Of a stretch of 64,000 nucleotides of DNA, positions 23,692 to 33,466 are shown one piece after another. Source of the stretch: Persephonella sp. (GTDB lineage: Bacteria; Aquificota; Aquificia; Aquificales; Hydrogenothermaceae); assembly GCF_015487465.1 (NCBI RefSeq), contig NZ_WFPS01000047.1:1-64000 (forward strand), read 5' to 3'. The translations under genes were made by a program, and so were the position numbers. Numbering within the stretch: the first letter of the stretch is position 1; each line of letters starts with the position of its first letter. The notes beneath the pieces are model-generated. The model was not told the origin of the DNA. It worked only from the letters and a program-made list of their open reading frames with translations, and searched no databases.

Positions 23692-24478
23692 ACCTTTCAG
23701 AACAAAGAAAAAGTTTGGACAGCATCTTTTAACTGCACCGGGAGTGATCCAGAAAATAGTAGATCAGTTAGATATAAAACCTGAAGACATAGTCGTTGAG
23801 ATAGGTGTAGGAACCGGTCAGCTGACAGAAGAGATACTGGGAAGAAAACCAAAAAAACTATACGGTATAGAGATAGATCCTGAAGCTTATCCTGTGATTG
23901 AAAAAAGATTTTCTGAACACAAAAATTTTCAGCTTATAAAAAAGGATTTTTTTGATGTAAATCTTTTTGATCTATCAGAGGGAAGAAAGATAAAAATTGC
24001 AGGCAATCTTCCGTATAATGTAGCCTCCCTGATACTTGTGAATATGCCTTTTTATCTGGAGATTATTAATCTGTGCGTATTTATGGTTCAAAAAGAAGTT
24101 GCCCTCAAGCTGATCGCCAGACCGAAAACAAAACAGTACACATTCTTGACTGTGTTTTTGAGAACATATTTTGATATTGAGTATGTGATGAGCGTTCCTG
24201 CAAGATTTTTCAAACCTCCCCCAAAGGTGACATCTGCAGTTGTGAAGATGTTTCCCAAAAAAAATGTTCCTGATTTTGACAAAAGAGGGTATAAAAATTT
24301 TGTATCCTCCCTTTTCAGCTCCCGTAGAAAAATGCTCAGAAGCAAAATCGATCCGGAGATACTGAAAAAAGCAAATATCCCTCCTGAAAAACGGGCAGAA
24401 GAACTTGATATTCTGGAGTTTATAAATCTATACCAGCACCTTCTTAGCGAAAAGAATGGCAAAAACCAGAACAGCTGA
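23681..24478 (+). CDS. rsmA: 16S rRNA dimethyladenosine transferase RsmA
   Basis: A 265-aa methyltransferase that dimethylates two adjacent adenosines near the 3' end of 16S rRNA during 30S maturation. Visible motifs are KKFGQHLL at the start, the SAM-binding VVEIGVGTGQLTEEI, the catalytic NLPYNVAS and the C-terminal RRKML. Translation starts at TTG 23681 inside the end of galU. The last 51 bases overlap the tauE-like gene on the other strand, an unusually long tail-to-tail overlap for this window. Confidence 0.95.
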   Translation: MKDKPFRTKKKFGQHLLTAPGVIQKIVDQLDIKPEDIVVEIGVGTGQLTEEILGRKPKKLYGIEIDPEAYPVIEKRFSEHKNFQLIKKDFFDVNLFDLSEGRKIKIAGNLPYNVASLILVNMPFYLEIINLCVFMVQKEVALKLIARPKTKQYTFLTVFLRTYFDIEYVMSVPARFFKPPPKVTSAVVKMFPKKNVPDFDKRGYKNFVSSLFSSRRKMLRSKIDPEILKKANIPPEKRAEELDILEFINLYQHLLSEKNGKNQNS

Positions 24479-25195
24479 GTTTAACGCAAACCTGAAAGGT
24501 TTTTGCGGAAGGTAAGGTGATATTAAAGCCCCCAGAATTACCCCTATTATTCCCCCCTGTAGAAGATAAAAAAGTATTCCTGTATCAACTCCCCCAAGTG
24601 AATAATGAATACCACCTGCAAAGATGCTAAGGATAAAGCCATGAACAATATCTGTTCCTACAATTTTTGAAGGGTTCATAGGGCACAAGGCTAAAAGAAT
24701 TGAGGCAACAATAATACCTGCACCGATTGATGTAAAACCTATATCAAACCCAACAACAAAGCCTATGACAGGTATAACAAAAGGTTTTGTTCTTATATCA
24801 AAATTTATTATCTTTTCATTTTTTGTAAACATTCTGTAGTAAGAAAAACAGCAGGAAGCAACAATCATAAATAGTATAAACGATGGGACCACCTTAGACG
24901 CTAAAGAAGGATTGATATCAAAAAGATAATGAAATGAATAGCTTCCAAGAAAAGCCCCCGGAATGCTTCCTGCTGCAAGTAAGGTGGCAAGTCTTATACA
25001 GACAAGTCCTCTTTTAAGATAAACAACTGAAGCAAAAATTTTTGTAATTGCTGAAAAAAGGAGGCTGGTTCCCACCGCAGTTGCGATAGGAACCCCCACG
25101 AGCAGAGTAAGGGCAGGTGTCGTTAACATTCCTCCTCCCACTCCCGAGATACCTATAATTAAGCCTAATATTCCACCTAATATGGTAAGTTCCAT
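24428..25195 (-). CDS. TauE/SafE family membrane permease
   Basis: A 255-aa integral membrane protein with about seven or eight hydrophobic segments. The TauE/SafE repeat motif appears as ILGLIIGISGVGGGMLTTP and again as VGFDIGFTSIGAGIIVAS. Members move sulfur-containing anions such as sulfite, sulfoacetate or thiosulfate. The ATG lies directly after the cysH stop, with GAAGGA upstream, in a sulfate-assimilation unit. I infer transport of sulfite or another sulfur oxyanion, possibly to avoid sulfite build-up between APS reductase and sulfite reductase. Confidence 0.8.
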   Translation of the reverse strand: MELTILGGILGLIIGISGVGGGMLTTPALTLLVGVPIATAVGTSLLFSAITKIFASVVYLKRGLVCIRLATLLAAGSIPGAFLGSYSFHYLFDINPSLASKVVPSFILFMIVASCCFSYYRMFTKNEKIINFDIRTKPFVIPVIGFVVGFDIGFTSIGAGIIVASILLALCPMNPSKIVGTDIVHGFILSIFAGGIHYSLGGVDTGILFYLLQGGIIGVILGALISPYLPQKPFRFALNSAVLVFAILFAKKVLV

Positions 25196-25903
25196 TTATT
25201 CCTTCTCTGTGAATGTGTGTAATCCACACTCTAATTTTCCTTTTCCTGCCCACCTTCCGGCTCTTTCATCTTCCCCTTCCAGCACAGGTCTCGTACATGG
25301 GGCACAGCCGATACTCAGGTAGCTTTGATCATAAAGGGGGTTGTAAGGAAGATTATTTTTTTCAACATATCTCCACACATCTTTCCTTGTCCAATCTGCT
25401 ATAGGGTTAACTTTAAGTATCAGTTTTCCATCTGGAAGCTTGTGGGTCTCAACCTTGCCTATGTTCGCCCTTGTTGGAGATTGATCCCTTCTCATTCCTG
25501 TAATCCAGACATCAAGATCATTCAACACCCTTTTTAAAGGCTCTACCTTTCTTATCTCACAGCATTTATCTGGATCTTTTTCGTATAACTTTTCCCCGTA
25601 TAATCTGTTTTGTTCTTCAACAGATATGAGAGGTTTTATAACCTTCAGGTTTAGATCCCACTCTTTTTTCAGCTTCTCTACAAGCTGGTAAGTTTCCGGA
25701 AAATGGTAATCTGTATCAATAAAGATAATAAGGGCATCAGGTTTTATCTGTTTTATCATATGGATTATTGATACATCATCTGCACTGAATGATGATGTAA
25801 AGCCTACATTTTTAAAGTTTTTGTAAACCCATCTCAAAAGATCCTGTGCAGGTAGATTTTCAAAGTGGTCGCTTTTTTCTTTCACAAACTCATTTGTAAA
25901 CAT
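25196..25903 (-). CDS. cysH: Adenylylsulfate (APS) reductase, CysH family
   Basis: Reduces APS to sulfite in assimilation. The 235-aa protein has the P-loop-like SSFSADDVS, the KCCEIRKVEPL pair (Cys114, Cys115) and the SIGCAPCTRP pair (Cys200, Cys203) that ligate a [4Fe-4S] cluster, and a catalytic cysteine in KLECGLH (Cys226). The cluster cysteines mark the plant/bacterial APS-type enzyme rather than the PAPS-type without cluster. This fits the absence of an APS kinase nearby. AAGGAGG precedes the ATG. It is the second gene of the minus-strand unit starting at the sigma-54-like promoter 26966-26980. Confidence 0.93.
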   Translation of the reverse strand: MFTNEFVKEKSDHFENLPAQDLLRWVYKNFKNVGFTSSFSADDVSIIHMIKQIKPDALIIFIDTDYHFPETYQLVEKLKKEWDLNLKVIKPLISVEEQNRLYGEKLYEKDPDKCCEIRKVEPLKRVLNDLDVWITGMRRDQSPTRANIGKVETHKLPDGKLILKVNPIADWTRKDVWRYVEKNNLPYNPLYDQSYLSIGCAPCTRPVLEGEDERAGRWAGKGKLECGLHTFTEKE

Positions 25904-25913
25904 CTTCTCCTCC

Positions 25914-26927
25914 TTAAAGTTCGTATATATTTTTATAGTTCAGGTATTCTGAGTATTTCTGGATATTCTTCAACACCTGCAGATAGTCGTATTTTTTAAA
26001 AAGCTCTTTTGACAGTTCAAAGCCTTCTTTAAGATCACTTACAACACCTTTAAGATATAGAAGAAGCCCACTGTTTACATGAAGTAGCGGCTCATACTCA
26101 GGCAGTTTTTTACCTAAAAGGTCTTTTAAAAAGTCTACATGCTCAGATAGATCAAGTTTTTTGTAAAGGAAAGGTTTTCCCCCAAAAACAGATAGATCTA
26201 CCTCTATTATTTCTTCTTTATCCCCAAAGATGTAGATTTTTGTTGAAGATGTTATGTCAGGAAATCCTTCCCTATCTTCAATTAAAGCAAATCTTTTGTA
26301 TCTTCCTTCTAACATGTTTTTATAGAACAATAACTGCCTGTTGTTTTTCACACCACCTACAGAGTATTCTGAAGAAAGTGGGTTCAGATACTTTTCAATG
26401 TGGCAGAAGATATCATTTATATTCAGATCTATTCTTATATGGTTTATTGAGGAAAGCTGAGGTAGAAAAAGCTTTCTGTTGAAAAATCCTACATTTAGAT
26501 TTTTCAGCATATTGTAGCTGTCTTCATTTGAAACGGTTGATATATCAAGATAATCAAAAATATCTTTAGTTGTGGGAACCGGCAGATTTTCCCCGTGGAA
26601 AACAGTTTTTATCTCACTTTTTGGGAGAAGTGATAAAACGATCGCCGATCCAATCAAAAAATACGGTGAAAAACTTTTCCTTTTGTAAGGATAGGCGATT
26701 TCTATAGAATCTTTTTCCTTAAAAGGCAGTTTTTTGTATCCATCAAGTACCTTGAGAGCGGTTCTGTATGATTTTGGAGACTTATGATGTTTAAGGCATA
26801 CAAGGGCAGCTGCAGTTTTTATATCAGAATAATTTCCCTCTATTATATTTTTTATCATTCCTGAGGTTCCGGAGCAGAGTTTGTTTCCATCTTTTCTTTT
26901 TCTCAGCTTAAAAAATATCTTTTCCAT
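25914..26927 (-). CDS. Anthranilate-phosphoribosyltransferase-like (TrpD2/GT family 3) protein
   Basis: A 337-aa protein matching the glycosyltransferase family 3 fold of TrpD. The N-terminal helical region with SDIKTAAALVCLKHH, then FHGENLPVPTTKDIFDYLDI, a LNPLSSEYSVGGV block and a RFALIEDREGFPD strand follow the TrpD order. The glycine-rich PRPP loop (GTGGD) of true TrpD is missing; YPYKRKSFSP stands in its place. It is therefore not expected to make tryptophan precursor and its substrate is unknown. I start it at ATG 26927 after GGAGG, because the predicted transcription start (about 26954) excludes an earlier start. It heads the cysH unit. Confidence 0.6.
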   Translation of the reverse strand: MEKIFFKLRKRKDGNKLCSGTSGMIKNIIEGNYSDIKTAAALVCLKHHKSPKSYRTALKVLDGYKKLPFKEKDSIEIAYPYKRKSFSPYFLIGSAIVLSLLPKSEIKTVFHGENLPVPTTKDIFDYLDISTVSNEDSYNMLKNLNVGFFNRKLFLPQLSSINHIRIDLNINDIFCHIEKYLNPLSSEYSVGGVKNNRQLLFYKNMLEGRYKRFALIEDREGFPDITSSTKIYIFGDKEEIIEVDLSVFGGKPFLYKKLDLSEHVDFLKDLLGKKLPEYEPLLHVNSGLLLYLKGVVSDLKEGFELSKELFKKYDYLQVLKNIQKYSEYLNYKNIYEL

Positions 26928-26965
26928 CACTGATCCTCCGTTTGTGTTTCTGGTTGACATATTAA

Positions 26966-26980
26966 GCAAACAGTATGCCA
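26966..26980 (-). promoter_or_regulatory. Sigma-54-type promoter for the trpD-like/cysH/tauE unit
   Basis: On the minus strand TGGCAT (26980-26975), five bases, then TTGC (26969-26966) followed by T. The GG and GC dinucleotides are 12 bases apart as required by the -24/-12 consensus. Transcription would begin near 26954, 27 bases before the ATG, leaving GGAGG in the leader. The divergent sat gene carries the same kind of element. Confidence 0.72.
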
Positions 26981-27032
26981 TTTGTGTAAGCTATTGAAAA
27001 ATAAGCAATTTTTTAAAATAAGTCTGTAAGCC

Positions 27033-27071
27033 TGGTTAAAAAATAATCATTTGTAGATTACATTTTGACCA
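27033..27071. promoter_or_regulatory. Candidate activator (enhancer) half-sites between the divergent sigma-54 promoters
   Basis: TGGTTAAAA at 27033-27041 and TTTTGACCA at 27063-27071 are inverted copies of TGGYYAAAA, about 30 bases centre to centre. They lie some 55-90 bases from the nearer -24/-12 element on either side. Near-identical half-sites occur upstream of the third sigma-54-like promoter at 31441-31470, which makes them candidate sites for the activator encoded at 32090-33466. Confidence 0.4.
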
Positions 27072-27121
27072 TATTTTTTAAAACAATGGAAATACCTCTT
27101 AAATATCAGCAACTTGTAGTT

Positions 27122-27136
27122 TGGCATGTCTGTTGC
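27122..27136 (+). promoter_or_regulatory. Sigma-54-type promoter for sat-sir
   Basis: TGGCAT (27122-27127), five bases, TTGC (27133-27136) followed by TT. The GG-GC spacing is 12 bases, a full match to the -24/-12 consensus core. Predicted start of transcription is near 27148, giving a leader of about 19 bases that contains AAGGAGG before the ATG at 27167. Confidence 0.75.
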
Positions 27137-27166
27137 TTAATACAGGCAAAAAAAGGAGGTAAGAGA

Positions 27167-28315
27167 ATGATACAGCCCCATGGAGGAAAACTTATAAAAA
27201 GAATTGCAGGCACCGAAGAAAAGGATTTTATCCTTTCCCTTAATTTAAAAAGGATATACATAGAAAAAGATGAGGCGTTAGATGCAGAAAAAATAGCTAT
27301 AGGAAGTTTCTCACCCCTTGAGGGCTTTATGGACAGTGAAGATCTGAGATCTGTCTGCAGTCATTTAACCCTTAAGAACGGCATTGTGTGGTCTATTCCT
27401 ATAATACTCCAGATTGATGATCCTTCAGATTTAAAAGTAGGTGAAAAGGTTTTGCTTGTGGACAAAACAGATAACAACCCTGTGGCTGTTATGGACATAT
27501 CAGACATTTACAAACTGAACAAAAAAGAGATTGCCAATACAGTCTTTGGAACACTTGATGAGAACCACCCAGGAGTAAAAAGGCTTTTTTCAAAGGGAGA
27601 TTACGGCATTGGAGGAAAGATAAAACTTCTAAACAGACCATCTTTTCCAAATAAAGAGTATGAACTGGATCCTGAAGAAACAAGGGAGATATTCAGGGAA
27701 AGGGGGTGGAAAACTGTTGTTGCCTTCCAAACAAGGAATGCACCTCACAGAGCCCATGAATATCTCCAAAGATTAGGCATGGAAATAGCTGAGGGACTTT
27801 TTATACACCCGATAATAGGACTAAAAAAAGAAGGGGATTTTGATAGCTCTGTCATCTTAAAGGCATACCAGATTTTGATAAACAGCTACTACCCACACAG
27901 AAAAGTTTTACTTGCAGGTCTGTCAACATCTATGAGATATGCAGGTCCAAGGGAAGCTGTTTTCCATGCGATAGTCAGGAAAAATTACGGATGCACACAT
28001 TTTATGGTAGGTAGAGATCACGCAGGTGTGGGAGATTATTACGATCCTTTTGCTGCCCATAAAATATTTGATGAGATACCTGATATAGGGATAAAGATAG
28101 TTAAGTTTTACAATGTGTTCCACTGCAACAGATGTGGTGGAATAGTATCAGAAAACACATGCTCACACCCTGAAGAGATGATAACAAAGATAAGCATGAC
28201 AAAAATAAGAAAAGCCCTTTCTGAAGGAAAAAGACCCCCATCAACAATGCTCAGGGAGGAGGTTGCTGACTTTTTGATCAAAAACTTTAATCTTGTAACG
28301 GAGGATTACAGATGA
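27167..28315 (+). CDS. sat: Sulfate adenylyltransferase (ATP sulfurylase)
   Basis: Activates sulfate with ATP to give APS, or works in reverse in sulfur oxidisers. The 382-aa sequence is the single-domain type: AFQTRNAPHRAHEY contains the QxRN and HxxH active-site motifs, GRDHAGVGDYY is the second nucleotide motif, and a cysteine/histidine set around FHCNRCGG may bind zinc. There is no C-terminal APS kinase domain. ATG 27167, after AAGGAGG, is chosen because the predicted sigma-54 start at about 27148 excludes the longer reading frame. Its stop overlaps the sir start as ATGA, so the assimilatory direction (Sat to APS reductase to sulfite reductase) is favoured. Confidence 0.94.
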   Translation: MIQPHGGKLIKRIAGTEEKDFILSLNLKRIYIEKDEALDAEKIAIGSFSPLEGFMDSEDLRSVCSHLTLKNGIVWSIPIILQIDDPSDLKVGEKVLLVDKTDNNPVAVMDISDIYKLNKKEIANTVFGTLDENHPGVKRLFSKGDYGIGGKIKLLNRPSFPNKEYELDPEETREIFRERGWKTVVAFQTRNAPHRAHEYLQRLGMEIAEGLFIHPIIGLKKEGDFDSSVILKAYQILINSYYPHRKVLLAGLSTSMRYAGPREAVFHAIVRKNYGCTHFMVGRDHAGVGDYYDPFAAHKIFDEIPDIGIKIVKFYNVFHCNRCGGIVSENTCSHPEEMITKISMTKIRKALSEGKRPPSTMLREEVADFLIKNFNLVTEDYR

Positions 28316-30600
28316 TAAAAAACGGCATTTACAGGGATTATCTTAGGGATATTGAGGAGTTCAACAGGCTTTACAGGGATTTTAAGGAAGGAAAAGCATT
28401 TGAGAGTGATTTTAAAAACTTCAGACTTGTGAACGGCATATACGGACAGAGACAGAAAGATTTTCACATGGTAAGGATAAAAATACCTGCAGGTATATTA
28501 ACAGCTGATCAGATAGATGAGATAGCAGATATTGGGGACACTTTCTCAAATGGGGTTGCCCACGTAACAACAAGACAGGATATACAATATCACTGGATTA
28601 AATTAGAAGATGTTCCCCAGATAATAAAAAGGATAAATGGAGCGGGGCTCACAACAAAAGATGCTTGTGGAAACGCTCTTAGAAACATTACAGCAAGTTA
28701 TTTATCGGGAGTGTGTCCAAATGAGATAATTGATGTAGGAAGATTAGCTCAGAAGCTTACCGAACTGCTCATAGGAAAATACGAAAATCTCCCAAGGAAG
28801 TTTAAGATAGGTTTTGCCTGCTGTGAAGAGCACAGCTTTCTTGTGCCTTTTAATGATATAGGCTTTTTACCTGTGCTAAATCAGGGGAAACCTGCATTCA
28901 GAGCTTTTGTAGGAGGCGGTCTGGGAGACAGACCTAAATACCCTTATGAATATCCTGAGATTATAAATCTTGAAGATCTTGTCCTGTTTATAAGATCGGT
29001 TATGGATCTTTTTGACAGACATGGTGACAGGAAGAATAAAAGACATAACAGATTGAAATTTTTAATCCAGAAATTAGGAATAGATGAGTTTTTTAGACTG
29101 CTTAAGGAAGAGATACAGAAAAACTCAGCAGAATATGAAAAATTCCAGTGTGATGCTGTATACGTTGAGGAGAAAGAGGAAAATGTTCTTCCAGAAGGAA
29201 AAGACCCACAGCACAAGATCTGGATAGAAACAAACATTATTCCCCAGAGACAGAAAGATCTTTTTGCTGTCCTTATCAGGCTTCCACTTGGAAATATAAC
29301 AACAGGAAAACTCAGAAAAATAGCCGAAATATCAAGGGATTATTCAGTTCAGGTGAGAACAACTCAGGATCAGAACATAGCTCTTATAAATGTTCATAGA
29401 GAGATACTGGATCAGATTTATCACTCTTTAAAAGAAGCAGGATTAAATGATTATGGTGCATCAACATACCTTGACATAACATCATGCCCTGGATCTGAAA
29501 CGTGCAGTCTTGGAATAACTTCATCAAGGGATTTATCAAGGGCTATTTATGAAAAGCTGCCTAAAGACCCTGAAACTGTAAGAAAACTAAAAAACATTAC
29601 AATAAAAGTAAGCGGGTGTCCCAACGCTTGTGCCCACCATCATGTTGCATCAATTGGACTTCACGGGATAGCTATGAAAATTGAGGATACACTGATACCT
29701 GCTTATGTTATACATCTGGGAGGAAACGGAACCCTGCACAACCAGAAAATCGGATACACAGGGATAAAAATTCCTGCAAAGAATGTTCCTGATGCAGTAA
29801 TAGAACTTCTTAATTTTTACCTTGAAAACAGCCATCAGAATGAGAGTTTTGAAGATTTTGTTGAGAGGATAACACCTGAAAGAATAAATAAACTTCTTGA
29901 AAAACATAAAGAACTTTATAAAAAAGTAGAATACAACATTGACTGGGGTTCAGATAAACAGTTCTCACTTGAAGATCTGGGCACGGGAGAGTGTGCAGGT
30001 ATAATCGCAGATAGGGTTGAAGAAGCATTAAAAGAGGGAGAAAGACTTATAAAACAGGCTGAAACACATATAAACAGAGGACTTCCTGAAGATGCAACCG
30101 TCCATATAGAAAAGGCTGTTGATATAATATCATCAGGTCTTCTTATACCCTTTGGTGTTAAAGCAGAAGGAAAAGATGCCAGAGAAAAGTTTATAGAGCA
30201 GATAATAGGTAGAAAGCTTGTTGATGAAAAGTTTATAAAACTTCTTGACAGGCAGATAAAAGACCCTCATGAACTTGTAAATACAGCAAAAGAGTTTTAT
30301 ACCATATGTAAGGAAACATATCTGAAGCTAAGAAGAGAAACAGAAGAAAAAAGAGAGGTGAAAAAAGAAGAAAAGGCAAGAAAAGAATTTTTAGATCTGA
30401 GGGGAGTAGAATGTCCCTTCAACTTTGTTAAAGCTAAATACAAGCTAAAAGAGATGGACGTGGGATCAATACTCGTTATAACAATTGATGGGGAAGAATC
30501 GATTAAAAGCGTTCCACAGAGTTTAAGAGATGAAGGACATGAGATTATTGATATACAGGAGGAGAAAGATTATTATACTGTTGTGGTAAGAAAAAGGTAG
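28312..30600 (+). CDS. Siroheme sulfite reductase fused to a helical region and a TusA domain
   Basis: A 762-aa protein. Residues about 1-530 are a ferredoxin-type nitrite/sulfite reductase: two ferrodoxin-like halves, HVTTRQDIQYHW near 85-95, and the siroheme/[4Fe-4S] cysteines in CPGSETC (392, 398) and GCPNAC (436, 440). Residues about 555-685 form a charged helical region, with ALKEGERLIKQAETHINRG resembling a HEPN-type bundle. Residues about 692-762 are a TusA/SirA sulfur-carrier domain, with Cys701 in GVECPFN. Normal assimilatory enzymes lack the last 200 residues. Coupled to sat and near cysH, it should reduce sulfite to sulfide; transfer of sulfur to the fused carrier is inferred. Nitrite as substrate is less likely. 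Confidence 0.88.
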   Translation: MIKNGIYRDYLRDIEEFNRLYRDFKEGKAFESDFKNFRLVNGIYGQRQKDFHMVRIKIPAGILTADQIDEIADIGDTFSNGVAHVTTRQDIQYHWIKLEDVPQIIKRINGAGLTTKDACGNALRNITASYLSGVCPNEIIDVGRLAQKLTELLIGKYENLPRKFKIGFACCEEHSFLVPFNDIGFLPVLNQGKPAFRAFVGGGLGDRPKYPYEYPEIINLEDLVLFIRSVMDLFDRHGDRKNKRHNRLKFLIQKLGIDEFFRLLKEEIQKNSAEYEKFQCDAVYVEEKEENVLPEGKDPQHKIWIETNIIPQRQKDLFAVLIRLPLGNITTGKLRKIAEISRDYSVQVRTTQDQNIALINVHREILDQIYHSLKEAGLNDYGASTYLDITSCPGSETCSLGITSSRDLSRAIYEKLPKDPETVRKLKNITIKVSGCPNACAHHHVASIGLHGIAMKIEDTLIPAYVIHLGGNGTLHNQKIGYTGIKIPAKNVPDAVIELLNFYLENSHQNESFEDFVERITPERINKLLEKHKELYKKVEYNIDWGSDKQFSLEDLGTGECAGIIADRVEEALKEGERLIKQAETHINRGLPEDATVHIEKAVDIISSGLLIPFGVKAEGKDAREKFIEQIIGRKLVDEKFIKLLDRQIKDPHELVNTAKEFYTICKETYLKLRRETEEKREVKKEEKARKEFLDLRGVECPFNFVKAKYKLKEMDVGSILVITIDGEESIKSVPQSLRDEGHEIIDIQEEKDYYTVVVRKR

Positions 30601-30665: not shown

Positions 30666-30983
30666 ATGAAAAAGATATTTGTTTTACTTTTTGCTTTTTA
30701 TTCAACCGCTCTTGCCTTTCCTTTTGACCATATGGGCGGAGAGGAACAGGGTCAGCAAATGATGGGCTGCATAGGTGATTGTGCAGCCTGCCATTCATTA
30801 ACCCCCATAGAAGCCCAGTCAATTTTAGGGCAGAAATTTGATGTCAAGAAAGTACTCAGGATAGACATAAAAGACGGCTTTTTCGAAGTAGAGTATGAAA
30901 ACTCTAAAGGAGAAAAAGAGAAGATAAACCTGTTTTTCAGCAAGGATAAAGCCTGCAGAGAGGTCATAAATCTTAATGAATAA
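30666..30983 (+). CDS. Exported DsbC N-terminal-domain-like protein with a CxxCH motif
   Basis: A 105-aa protein with a signal peptide (IFVLLFAFYSTALAF) and a small mature domain. GDCAACHSLTPIEAQSILG followed by a KVLRIDIKDGFFEVEYEN strand pair resembles the N-terminal dimerisation domain of DsbC-type proteins found without the thioredoxin part in many thermophiles and deltaproteobacteria. CAACH could bind heme c or act as a redox pair. ATG 30666 is preferred over ATG 30651. It starts 65 bases after sir in AT-rich DNA and may be read from the sat promoter or its own. Confidence 0.55.
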   Translation: MKKIFVLLFAFYSTALAFPFDHMGGEEQGQQMMGCIGDCAACHSLTPIEAQSILGQKFDVKKVLRIDIKDGFFEVEYENSKGEKEKINLFFSKDKACREVINLNE

Positions 30984-30995
30984 ACGGGGGGCATC

Positions 30996-31433
30996 ATGAA
31001 TGGACCTGCTTTTATCAGAAAATCCATAATCAACAGAATTCTTTTTATCACTGTCTCAGGTGCTGTTGTTGTGTCATTTCTGGCATTTTTTCTTTTTTAC
31101 TTTATCTTTGCAAACGAAGGGACTTACCATTTCCTTGAAAACATTCTGAACTACGCAAAAACTCACCCGTTCACCTTTGCGTTGTTTTTAGGTTTTCTCA
31201 CATTTCAGGCATCACTAATTCCTATAATCATGACATACTTCCTTCTGAAAAAAGAGATAATAGATCCTTTACAGGACATATCTGAAAGAATGGAAAAGAT
31301 ATCTATGGGTGAGCTTGAGCAGGAAATTCCTGTTGAAAGAGAAGATGAGATAGGACATCTGCAGGAATCCTTTGAAAGAATGAGAATGAGCCTGAGGGTT
31401 ATTGTTGAAAAACTGGAAAATGAGGAGCTTTGA
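30996..31433 (+). CDS. Two-span membrane protein with a lone HAMP domain
   Basis: A 145-aa protein with membrane spans at about residues 16-40 and 60-84, then a HAMP linker (EIIDPLQDISERMEKISMGELEQEIPVEREDEIGHLQ, shown here only to mark its extent, residues 86-123) and a short coiled coil. There is no kinase, methyl-accepting or cyclase output domain. HAMP units pass conformational signals, so it might sense the envelope state and act through a partner, for instance the unphosphorylatable activator at 32090; that is speculation. It follows the DsbC-like gene by 12 bases, with GGGGG before the ATG. Confidence 0.7.
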   Translation: MNGPAFIRKSIINRILFITVSGAVVVSFLAFFLFYFIFANEGTYHFLENILNYAKTHPFTFALFLGFLTFQASLIPIIMTYFLLKKEIIDPLQDISERMEKISMGELEQEIPVEREDEIGHLQESFERMRMSLRVIVEKLENEEL

Positions 31434-31440
31434 TTAAAAC

Positions 31441-31470
31441 TTAACCATTAGAGTGGTTAAATTTTAGCCA
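31441..31470. promoter_or_regulatory. Nested inverted repeats upstream of the third sigma-54-like promoter
   Basis: TTAACCA (31441-31447) and TGGTTAA (31454-31460) are perfect inverted arms around six bases. The second arm is also the left half of TGGTTAAATTTTAGCCA (31454-31470), a 17-base palindrome with one mismatch. The half-site TGGYYAAAA matches those at 27033-27071. The position, about 55-80 bases before the -24 element, fits an enhancer site for a sigma-54 activator. Confidence 0.45.
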
Positions 31471-31522
31471 GTTAAAAGGGTTGTTTTTATAGTATTCTAT
31501 ATTTATCAATGATTTATTCAAT

Positions 31523-31537
31523 TGGCACAGATGTTGT
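31523..31537 (+). promoter_or_regulatory. Sigma-54-like promoter for the exported thioredoxin-like gene
   Basis: TGGCAC (31523-31528), five bases, TTGT (31534-31537) followed by TT. The -24 box is perfect and spacing is right, but the -12 box has GT in place of GC, so it may be weak or strongly activator-dependent. Transcription would begin near 31549, inside the left arm of the hairpin at 31543-31568. Confidence 0.5.
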
Positions 31538-31542
31538 TTAAT

Positions 31543-31568
31543 ACCTCCTGAAAATAAAATCAGGAGGT
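31543..31568 (+). promoter_or_regulatory. Hairpin that would sequester the ribosome binding site
   Basis: ACCTCCTGA (31543-31551) and TCAGGAGGT (31560-31568) form a perfect 9-base-pair stem with an 8-base A-rich loop. The right arm is the Shine-Dalgarno sequence of the gene starting at 31576. RNA read in from upstream would hide the site, whereas RNA starting at the predicted sigma-54 start (about 31549) would lack most of the left arm and stay open. Confidence 0.5.
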
Positions 31569-31575
31569 TTTGATA

Positions 31576-32025
31576 ATGAAAAAAGTAGTGCTGTTTGTTT
31601 TGTTGGGAATTTTTCTATCGGTTCCGGCTCTGGCTCAGGATAAGCTCCTTGTCATTTATCTTTACCACAAAAACAGTCCGTATCTTGAAAAAATCAACAA
31701 CAAAATCATGAAAAACAAGTATCTTGCAAAGAGGATCAAAAAAAGTTTTGATTTCAGAAAGATCCAGTTAGACACCCCAGAAGGAAAAAATTTTGCAAAA
31801 AGATTTAATATCTCCCAAAAAGAAGGGGTTTATTTTATTGATCCGTCATCTGGAAAAATTCTTTACAGTCTTACAGATCTTTCCCAGCCATGCAGATGTG
31901 CAAATCTTATCAACTATTTCTCAAGAAATCTCCACAAAAAAGGTATAGATCCAGATAGATATCTGCACATGGCTGAAAAAATAGGGGCTTACACAAAAAA
32001 GGTAGAAAAAGACTACCTATTCTAA
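31576..32025 (+). CDS. Exported thioredoxin-fold protein without a CxxC pair
   Basis: A 149-aa protein with a clear signal peptide (LFVLLGIFLSVPALAQ). The mature part starts with a strand and then HKNSPYLEKINNKI, where thioredoxin-like proteins carry CxxC; here the cysteines are replaced. A later region (FNISQKEGVYFIDPSSGKI) fits the central thioredoxin-fold strands, and CRC occurs near residue 110. It resembles small periplasmic thioredoxin-like proteins of sulfur oxidisers, but the function is unknown. ATG 31576 is spaced 8 bases from GGAGG. It is transcribed alone, between a sigma-54-like promoter and a terminator. Confidence 0.6.
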   Translation: MKKVVLFVLLGIFLSVPALAQDKLLVIYLYHKNSPYLEKINNKIMKNKYLAKRIKKSFDFRKIQLDTPEGKNFAKRFNISQKEGVYFIDPSSGKILYSLTDLSQPCRCANLINYFSRNLHKKGIDPDRYLHMAEKIGAYTKKVEKDYLF

Positions 32026-32089: not shown

Positions 32090-33466
32090 TTGCCAGACAG
32101 AGTTTATGTTTTATCAAAAAACAAAGATGTTGTGGAAAACCTGAGAAAATATTTCACCAAAATATCCCAGATCAGTAGTCCCAAAGATATAGAGAAATTA
32201 GAAGCAGGGGTTGTGTTTATTAACATAAAGGATTTTGGTATTGTTCCTGTTCCTGTCAAGAAAGGTCTTTTTTCAGTTGCTGTGATAGACAAAGACATAT
32301 CCAAAACAAACCTTGCAGCATTTATAATGAGAATAATGAGCAAAAATTATTTTGAGTATATAGAATATCCGTTTACCCAGTCAGAAATACACAGCTTAAA
32401 AAATAAACTGACCATAAAAGAAAAAAATGAAGAAAAAGTGATTAACTTTAAAAGTTCCTCAGCATCAAACGGTATGATATGTCAGTATCTATGCTCAATT
32501 ATAGGATCGTCCCCACAACTTAAACAGATATGTAAGTTGGCAGGTGAGGTTGCCCCAACAGATATTCCGGTTCTTATCACAGGAGAGACGGGAACAGGGA
32601 AAGAGCTTCTTGCGAAAGGAATATGGAAACTGAGCAAAAGAGCCAATAAACCATTTATAGCAATAAACTGTGCAGCAATCCCTGAAAACCTTATTGAATC
32701 AGAGCTTTTTGGATACGAAAAGGGAGCTTTTACAGGAGCAGACAGACCAAAACCGGGAAAGTTTGAGATAGCAGATGGTGGCACAATTTTTCTTGATGAG
32801 GTTGGAGAACTTCCCCTTTCTGCACAATCAAAACTCCTCAGATTTCTTCAGGAAGGGACATTTTACAGGTTAGGTGGAACAAAAGAGATAAAGGTTGACG
32901 TAAGGATTATGGCAGCAACCAACAGGGACCTTGAAAAGATGATAAAGGAAGGAAAGTTCAGGGAAGATCTTTACTACAGATTAAACTTTGTTCATATAAA
33001 GCTGCCTCCCCTGAGGGAAAGGAAAGAAGACATACCTTACATAGTTGAATGTATAGTGAACAAATACAACAAAAAATTAAGCAAGAATATTACCGGGGCA
33101 TCTGTTGAATACATAAAAAAACTTCAAAATCAGAGATGGGAAGGAAATATAAGAGAGCTTGAGAATGTTGTCGTCAGATCAATGATACTGTGCAGAAATA
33201 ACATTCTGAGCCTTCCTGATCTTGAATTTCTTGAGGAAAAACCTGATAAAGAGATACAGCACTCCCCTGAGGTTGAAGAATTTATAAGAGAGCATGTGCT
33301 TTCAGCTATAAAAAACGGGGGACTGAAAAATCTTGAAGAAAACATAGAAAGATCAATAATAAAAACCGTTCTGGAATACACAGGAAATAATCAGGTCAAG
33401 GCAGCCGATCTTTTGGGCATAAACAGAGCAACCCTCAGAAAGAAAATCCGCAAATACTCTCTGTAA
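32090..33466 (+). CDS. Sigma-54-dependent transcriptional activator with degenerate receiver
   Basis: A 458-aa enhancer-binding protein. Residues 1-105 have a receiver-like alternating pattern ([14 protein letters not shown] to [10 protein letters not shown]), but the acidic pair, the phospho-acceptor Asp (FINIKD region) and the conserved Lys (replaced by Tyr in YP) are missing. The AAA+ domain has Walker A GETGTGKE (165-172), the sigma-54 contact loop GAFTGAD (212-218), Walker B FLDEVGE and the arginine finger region LPPLRER. A Fis-type helix-turn-helix ends the protein ([18 protein letters not shown]). Translation seems to start at TTG 32090. Its neighbourhood contains the only three sigma-54-type promoters I found, so it is the natural candidate activator for them; its signal is unknown. 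Confidence 0.88.

Follow-up and report, generated by a model that had tools for sequence, protein, structure and literature searches.

The genes for assimilatory sulfate reduction in this Persephonella genome very probably form a regulon of dedicated sigma-54 promoters served by a neighboring enhancer-binding protein (EBP), a reading based on the DNA sequence and its comparison among relatives. The two arms of the gene cluster diverge from a 239 bp gap (26928-27166 of the window, i.e., of the whole 64,000 nt stretch that was analyzed), which runs exactly from the ATG of a trpD-like gene (26927, minus strand) to the ATG of sat (27167). The gap holds one sigma-54-type promoter facing each arm and, between them, two dyads that are the putative binding sites of the EBP. 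The EBP gene is located about 4 kb from the gap (Table 1). The enhancer dyads, a third promoter, the EBP and the lineage-wide spread of the arrangement go beyond a preliminary description of this DNA.

Table 1. Features of the sulfate cluster and its control region; positions are those of the window.
Feature	Position	Strand	Remarks
TauE/SafE family transporter	24428-25195	minus	
cysH, APS/PAPS reductase	25196-25903	minus	
TrpD/phosphoribosyltransferase-like paralog	25914-26927	minus	First gene of left arm; below curated cut-offs
Sigma-54 promoter P-left (predicted)	26966-26980	minus	TGGCATACTGTTTGC; -24 TGGCAT, -12 TTGC; kept in 12/12 loci
IHF-consensus-like element (putative function)	26987-26999	minus	TTTCAATAGCTTA; fixed distance of -19 from -24 box
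Dyad 1, putative EBP site	27033-27049		TGGTTAAAAAATAATCA; center 61 bp from left -24, 81 bp from right
Dyad 2, putative EBP site	27055-27071		AGATTACATTTTGACCA; center 83 bp from left -24, 59 bp from right
IHF-consensus-like element (putative function)	27104-27116	plus	TATCAGCAACTTG; -18 from -24 box
Sigma-54 promoter P-right (predicted)	27122-27136	plus	TGGCATGTCTGTTGC; kept in 12/12 loci
sat, sulfate adenylyltransferase	27167-28315	plus	First gene of right arm
sir, siroheme sulfite reductase with C-terminal TusA domain	28312-30600	plus	Sulfite rather than nitrite suggested by context
Small exported protein, CxxCH motif	30666-30983	plus	No family match
Membrane HAMP-only protein	30996-31433	plus	
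Dyad	31431-31447		TGATTAAAACTTAACCA; center 84 bp from third -24; overlaps HAMP gene stop codon
Dyad	31454-31470		TGGTTAAATTTTAGCCA; center 61 bp from third -24
Third sigma-54-like promoter	31523-31537	plus	TGGCACAGATGTTGT; TGGCAC-N5-TTG; predicted start 31549
Small exported protein	31576-32025	plus	No family match; first gene of EBP unit
Sigma-54 enhancer-binding protein (EBP)	32090-33466	plus	AAA+ with GAFTGA, Fis-type HTH, linker C131-x3-C135

The Promoter Pair

P-left faces the trpD-like/cysH/tauE unit and P-right faces sat-sir, with starts predicted from the -12 geometry at 26954 and 27148, respectively. Two divergent elements of the TGGCAT-N5-TTGC type had been placed at 27122-27136 and 26966-26980 by the preliminary description; the coordinates proved exact, and GG-N10-GC is exact in both. 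The further claim that these starts leave out longer reading frames holds: the in-frame starts farther upstream, at 26981 and 27065, are both excluded. The two promoters are the only zero-mismatch TGGCAY-N5-TTGC sequences in the window. When up to two mismatches are allowed, the window has 87 matches against a shuffle mean of 74, which is little enrichment. Across the whole genome, pattern searches gave 8 exact matches and none to the reversed-pattern control. Thus, a divergent pair within 239 bp is far beyond chance. Since the loose motif is near the shuffle level, the evidence lies in the exact pair and its conservation, not in the motif alone. We did not find a sigma-70-like promoter in the gap (0 versus 1.4 expected in shuffles). 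The genome has a single copy of rpoN (PF04552, E 3.9e-59).

Nearly all cluster promoters also have an element like WTCAAYAACTTA at a fixed distance of -18/-19 from the -24 box, including one at 31504-31516. Two sigma-54 sites elsewhere in the genome, unrelated to these promoters, have it in part (L049, L054). The element resembles the IHF consensus or may be an extended sigma-54 promoter element.

Conservation Among Relatives

The boxes of P-left and P-right are kept at 24/24 sites in 12 loci, which represent three genera of the family and share ancestry, so that their counts are of non-independent events. The preliminary description had named a comparison of this spacer in relatives as a check and the loss of GG or GC in relatives retaining the gene order as its refutation. 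Such losses were looked for and none was seen, and 22/22 sites are kept in the 11 further loci that retain the cluster. The distance between the two -24 boxes is 137-144 bp in 12/12 loci. When ten non-redundant loci are compared, identity is 100% in each of the nine fixed motif columns and averages 61-63% in the surrounding columns.

The boxes are constant while gene order and flanking sequence vary between loci. Both sites are present in all nine other Persephonella loci with the cluster, across which sat identity ranges from 97 to ~75%. In G020 (L087), sat is gone from the cluster and the equivalent of P-right faces sir, with both boxes retained. The pair is likewise kept in two other genera. 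In one (L138), the trpD-like gene is ~49% identical, sat is again gone from the cluster and the right promoter faces sir; in the other (L141), cysH lies on one side and sir on the opposite side, and the left unit includes a cobA-like gene and a sat of another type.

The Central Dyads

The two dyads in the middle of the gap are 17 bp sequences of the TGGTTA-N5-TAACCA type, about two helical turns apart. Measured from the left -24 box, their centers lie at 61 and 83 bp; measured from the right one, they lie at 81 and 59 bp. The promoters therefore see one arrangement in mirror image. Dyad 2 is the weaker copy; it is clear in most relatives and weak in L015 and L016. The half-site consensus of each family was derived from these very spacers, and position played no part in the choice. 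The best central dyad scores above shuffled sequence in 11 loci; the twelfth is L138, whose central dyads are no better than shuffles (P 0.53). The combination dyad-N44-74-TGGCAY occurs at only two places in the genome, the gap and 31454-31528; neither the reversed control nor any of four congeners without the cluster gave a match. The single match in G020 is the corresponding locus. A chance origin of P-left and P-right was considered and is ruled out by the exact matches, the reversed control, this combination of dyad and -24 box, and the column conservation.

In both families considered here, the near dyad is mostly 59-64 bp upstream of the -24 box, with exceptions that are mostly one turn off, as in helical phasing, and the separation between dyads is 20-23 bp throughout. 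A vector-strength comparison of the phasing is descriptive only, the loci being related.

The EBP and Its Putative Promoter

Seven EBPs are encoded in the genome, i.e., six besides the one in the cluster. The latter has the expected domains (PF00158, 8.6e-75; PF02954, 1.9e-14), and its GAFTGA motif was seen in the alignment. It was found in 8/9 other Persephonella genomes with the cluster; in the ninth (G027) the contig ends inside sat. It is absent from G019 and G024, congeners with 99-100% complete genomes that are also without the cluster. Because EBP and cluster co-occur, the dyad module is found only at both, and homologs in a second family adjoin the reductase, there is good genomic evidence for this protein as the cognate activator of the cluster and of its own unit.

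The third promoter precedes the gene of a small exported protein and the EBP gene. Promoter and dyads are present in ten genomes, and in some relatives the dyad distances grow to 72-73 and 92-96 bp, an increase of about one turn. TGGCAC is kept in all. At -12, the window has the dinucleotide GT and most relatives have GA; the canonical GC occurs only in G020 and G016, and this promoter may therefore be a weaker one.

The leader of the EBP unit contains a hairpin (ACCTCCTGA/TCAGGAGGT, 31543-31568) that covers the ribosome site. All nine loci that were folded have it, at -15 to -21 kcal/mol, and show paired substitutions such as CCTTCTAAA/TTTAGGAGG in G025. Transcription is predicted to start at 31549, inside the left arm of the hairpin, and so read-through RNA is predicted to be blocked for translation and RNA from the dedicated promoter to be free.

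Just ahead of the AAA+ domain, an LC-x2-LC motif (C131 and C135 in the window EBP) is common to ~30 homologs from the two families. Five paralogous EBPs from this genome were aligned and do not have the C-x3-C, and residues 1-120 of the Persephonella EBPs have no conserved Cys. We offer as a hypothesis that thiol, persulfide or metal sensing takes place at the C-x3-C. The EBP N-terminus gave no Pfam match to a Response_reg domain. In the Persephonella orthologs, N or D occupies the phospho-Asp position, and Tyr/Phe replaces the Lys that would precede Pro. With no Response_reg match and no constant acceptor Asp or Lys, control by phosphorylation appears unlikely in Persephonella. Modeled alone, the N-terminal domain is predicted to be a five-strand alpha/beta fold (pLDDT 83). 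The model had no significant match in the PDB, and the best were flavodoxin-like and receiver-like folds (TM ~0.5); as modeled, the domain resembles a degenerate receiver. The full-length model (pLDDT 49) is too poor for placing the cysteines.

Gene Content of the Cluster

Two small exported proteins and the HAMP-only protein are kept with the sulfate cluster and could serve signal input or periplasmic sulfur handling. The TrpD-like paralog, which curated models match only below the cut-off, heads the cysH arm in Persephonella and in L138. A second sat, 47% identical (G000:C54:442-1578, L030), is found in this genome and in many genomes of the family. This second type is without a TGGCAY-N5-TTGC site nearby, yet in L141 it lies inside the sigma-54 cluster.

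A Second Family

With a profile built on the N-terminal part and linker of the EBP, homologs were found in another family of the order (f2), which we take to be the Aquificaceae. Here, 17/18 EBP homologs are divergent beside a siroheme/sulfite reductase; the remaining one, in G090, is located on another contig. TGGCAY-N5-TTGC or -ATGC is present between the genes in 17/17 divergent pairs of EBP and reductase. The spacers contain two dyads with other half-sites, TGTTTA-N5-TATACA, mostly at 61-64 and 81-85 bp. Most of the exceptions are displaced by 10-11 bp, one helical turn; the dyads of G058 are off phase and weak. In one genome (G100; L145/L187), ~290 extra bases separate the sigma-54 site from the start of the sulfite reductase; they may be an insertion or stem from the assembly.

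The three reductases of this family that were scanned with Pfam are fusions of NIR_SIR, ThiS and PAPS_reduct (CysH), and the reductase of the g20 genomes is followed by cysH and tauE. These fusions and the downstream cysH/tauE therefore assign the reductase class of the second family to sulfate reduction. Apparent fusions of sulfite reductase, a ThiS-like domain and APS/PAPS reductase, ~880 aa long, occur at L151, L163, L170, L153, L168 and L161 (Pfam on three). It was also considered that the Aquificaceae COG0155 genes with sigma-54 sites are nitrite reductases; for the EBP-linked class this is ruled out by the NIR_SIR + ThiS + PAPS_reduct fusions.

Proposed Mechanism and Alternatives

From the promoters, dyads, geometry, conservation and EBP linkage observed in the DNA, we infer a mechanism in which sigma-54 RNA polymerase would sit closed on both divergent -24/-12 promoters and the EBP would bind the two central dyads of the gap. 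Since each promoter has dyads at ~60 and 82 bp, one EBP location could open both. The sat-sir and trpD-like-cysH-tauE units would then be activated together, and Sat, sulfite reductase and CysH would rise jointly. Through the second dyad pair, the EBP would act on its own promoter at 31523, with presumably positive feedback. Judging from the gene content, the EBP would be active under a shortage of reduced sulfur, perhaps sensed through the linker C-x3-C; we regard this signal as roughly an even call. More tentatively, this EBP family of the Aquificales, with its degenerate receiver-like domain, may be a new class of sulfur-supply sensor in which the linker C-x3-C gates the AAA+ ring through thiol, persulfide or metal chemistry; in this lineage it would have replaced CysB/CymR-type control of assimilatory sulfate reduction and would fire two promoters from a mirror-symmetric enhancer.

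The sigma-54 promoters could be real and yet be activated by another EBP, e.g., a nitrogen regulator, with the neighboring EBP controlling something else. There are enough EBPs in the genome for this, and linkage is no proof of cognate action. Nevertheless, we consider it improbable: the module of dyad and -24 box occurs only in the gap and at the EBP's own promoter, EBP and cluster are found together among genomes, the homologs of the second family likewise adjoin a sulfite reductase, and the linker C-x3-C of the orthologs is absent from the five paralogs aligned. A still more doubtful alternative, which we rate as very improbable, is that the boxes are conserved for another reason (coding overlap or another regulator) and that an unrecognized sigma-70-type promoter drives transcription. 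The starts are indeed predicted and the sigma-70 scan is blind to other promoter types, but the gap has no sigma-70-like site, rpoN is present, and the GG-N10-GC spacing is exact in 24/24. Coding overlap is ruled out as the cause of conservation because the boxes persist where sir or cysH takes the place of sat as the downstream gene. Control of both arms by sigma-54, as the preliminary description had it, is thus favored by fully conserved boxes, a single rpoN, the lack of a sigma-70-like site in the gap, the common dyads and the nearby EBP.

Compatible with EBP-driven sigma-54 control, though rather unlikely in our view, is a different signal, for instance oxygen, sulfite or redox state; the C-x3-C would then serve as a site for a metal, an Fe-S cluster or a disulfide. 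The conservation of the motif in ~30 homologs of two families would suit such a signal, as would the CxxCH exported protein and the HAMP protein, which lie in the same unit, and the N-terminal domain gives no hint of a ligand. The targets, however, are the steps of sulfate reduction, for which control by supply or end product is the simplest expectation.

Comparison With Known Systems

By AAA+ sequence, the closest solved relatives of the window EBP include PDB 1ny5 and 3dzd, NtrC1 and NtrC4 of Aquifex aeolicus; the matches cover the AAA+ region. The window EBP differs in its C-x3-C and in that no Response_reg domain is detectable in it, and it does not have the features of a phosphorylated response regulator of the NtrC type.

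SfnR of Pseudomonas putida is a sigma-54 activator for the utilization of dimethyl sulfone under sulfate starvation (PMC8234197, and the references therein). Like the window EBP, it is a sigma-54 EBP for acquiring sulfur when easy sulfur is missing, but its targets are organosulfur oxygenases and sfnR is regulated by CysB. In the window system, the apparent direct targets are the core genes of sulfate reduction, and the EBP seems to control its own unit; the two systems thus differ in target type. FisR of Cupriavidus and Acinetobacter is a sigma-54 activator responsive to sulfide and persulfide, with an N-terminal regulatory domain, AAA+ and a DNA-binding domain like the window EBP (PMC7315123). 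Its targets are also linked to sulfur and include a TauE-like protein, and cysteines are implicated in Cupriavidus (PMC7315123). However, FisR activates sulfide oxidation at high sulfide, and the sensing cysteines of the Cupriavidus protein are in the regulatory domain (PMC7315123), whereas the C-x3-C of the window EBP is in the linker just before AAA+ and its targets are sulfate reduction genes. Neither regulatory-domain cysteines nor sulfide-oxidation targets of the FisR kind were found for the window EBP.

A similar layout is known around DVUA0100 of Desulfovibrio vulgaris, where divergent sigma-54 operons have a predicted EBP site in their common upstream region and the EBP gene is within one of both operons (excerpts of PMC4641369). 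That system concerns type III secretion, and a mirror geometry conserved across genera is not described in these excerpts (PMC4641369). A 2025 computational survey states in one sentence that the sulfite reductase COG0155 is enriched among predicted sigma-54 targets in Aquificia (PMC12316311). The enrichment probably covers the Aquificaceae genes seen here, and the survey thus anticipates part of the present finding. We did not find mention in it of the divergent promoter pair, enhancer dyads, a cognate EBP, autoregulation or the C-x3-C (PMC12316311). Nor did our searches of the open-access literature turn up a description of a dedicated EBP, of an enhancer shared by the promoters or of the C-x3-C family.

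Implications

The compact, mirror-symmetric gap is a clean natural model for a single enhancer firing two sigma-54 promoters. The EBP found in many Aquificota genomes now has a probable function, and its signal and the chemistry of its C-x3-C have become directly testable. Textbook control of sulfate assimilation is by LysR-type regulators (CysB/Cbl), CymR or riboswitches. Direct sigma-54 control had been called unusual in the preliminary description; this is apt when set against CysB, CymR or riboswitch control, but not within the Aquificales, where the arrangement recurs at this type of sulfite reductase. It seems to be an ancient alternative to the usual cysteine regulators that extends across the lineage. 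In two families of a deep-branching phylum, core sulfate assimilation is apparently under enhancer-dependent sigma-54 control with an activator of its own.
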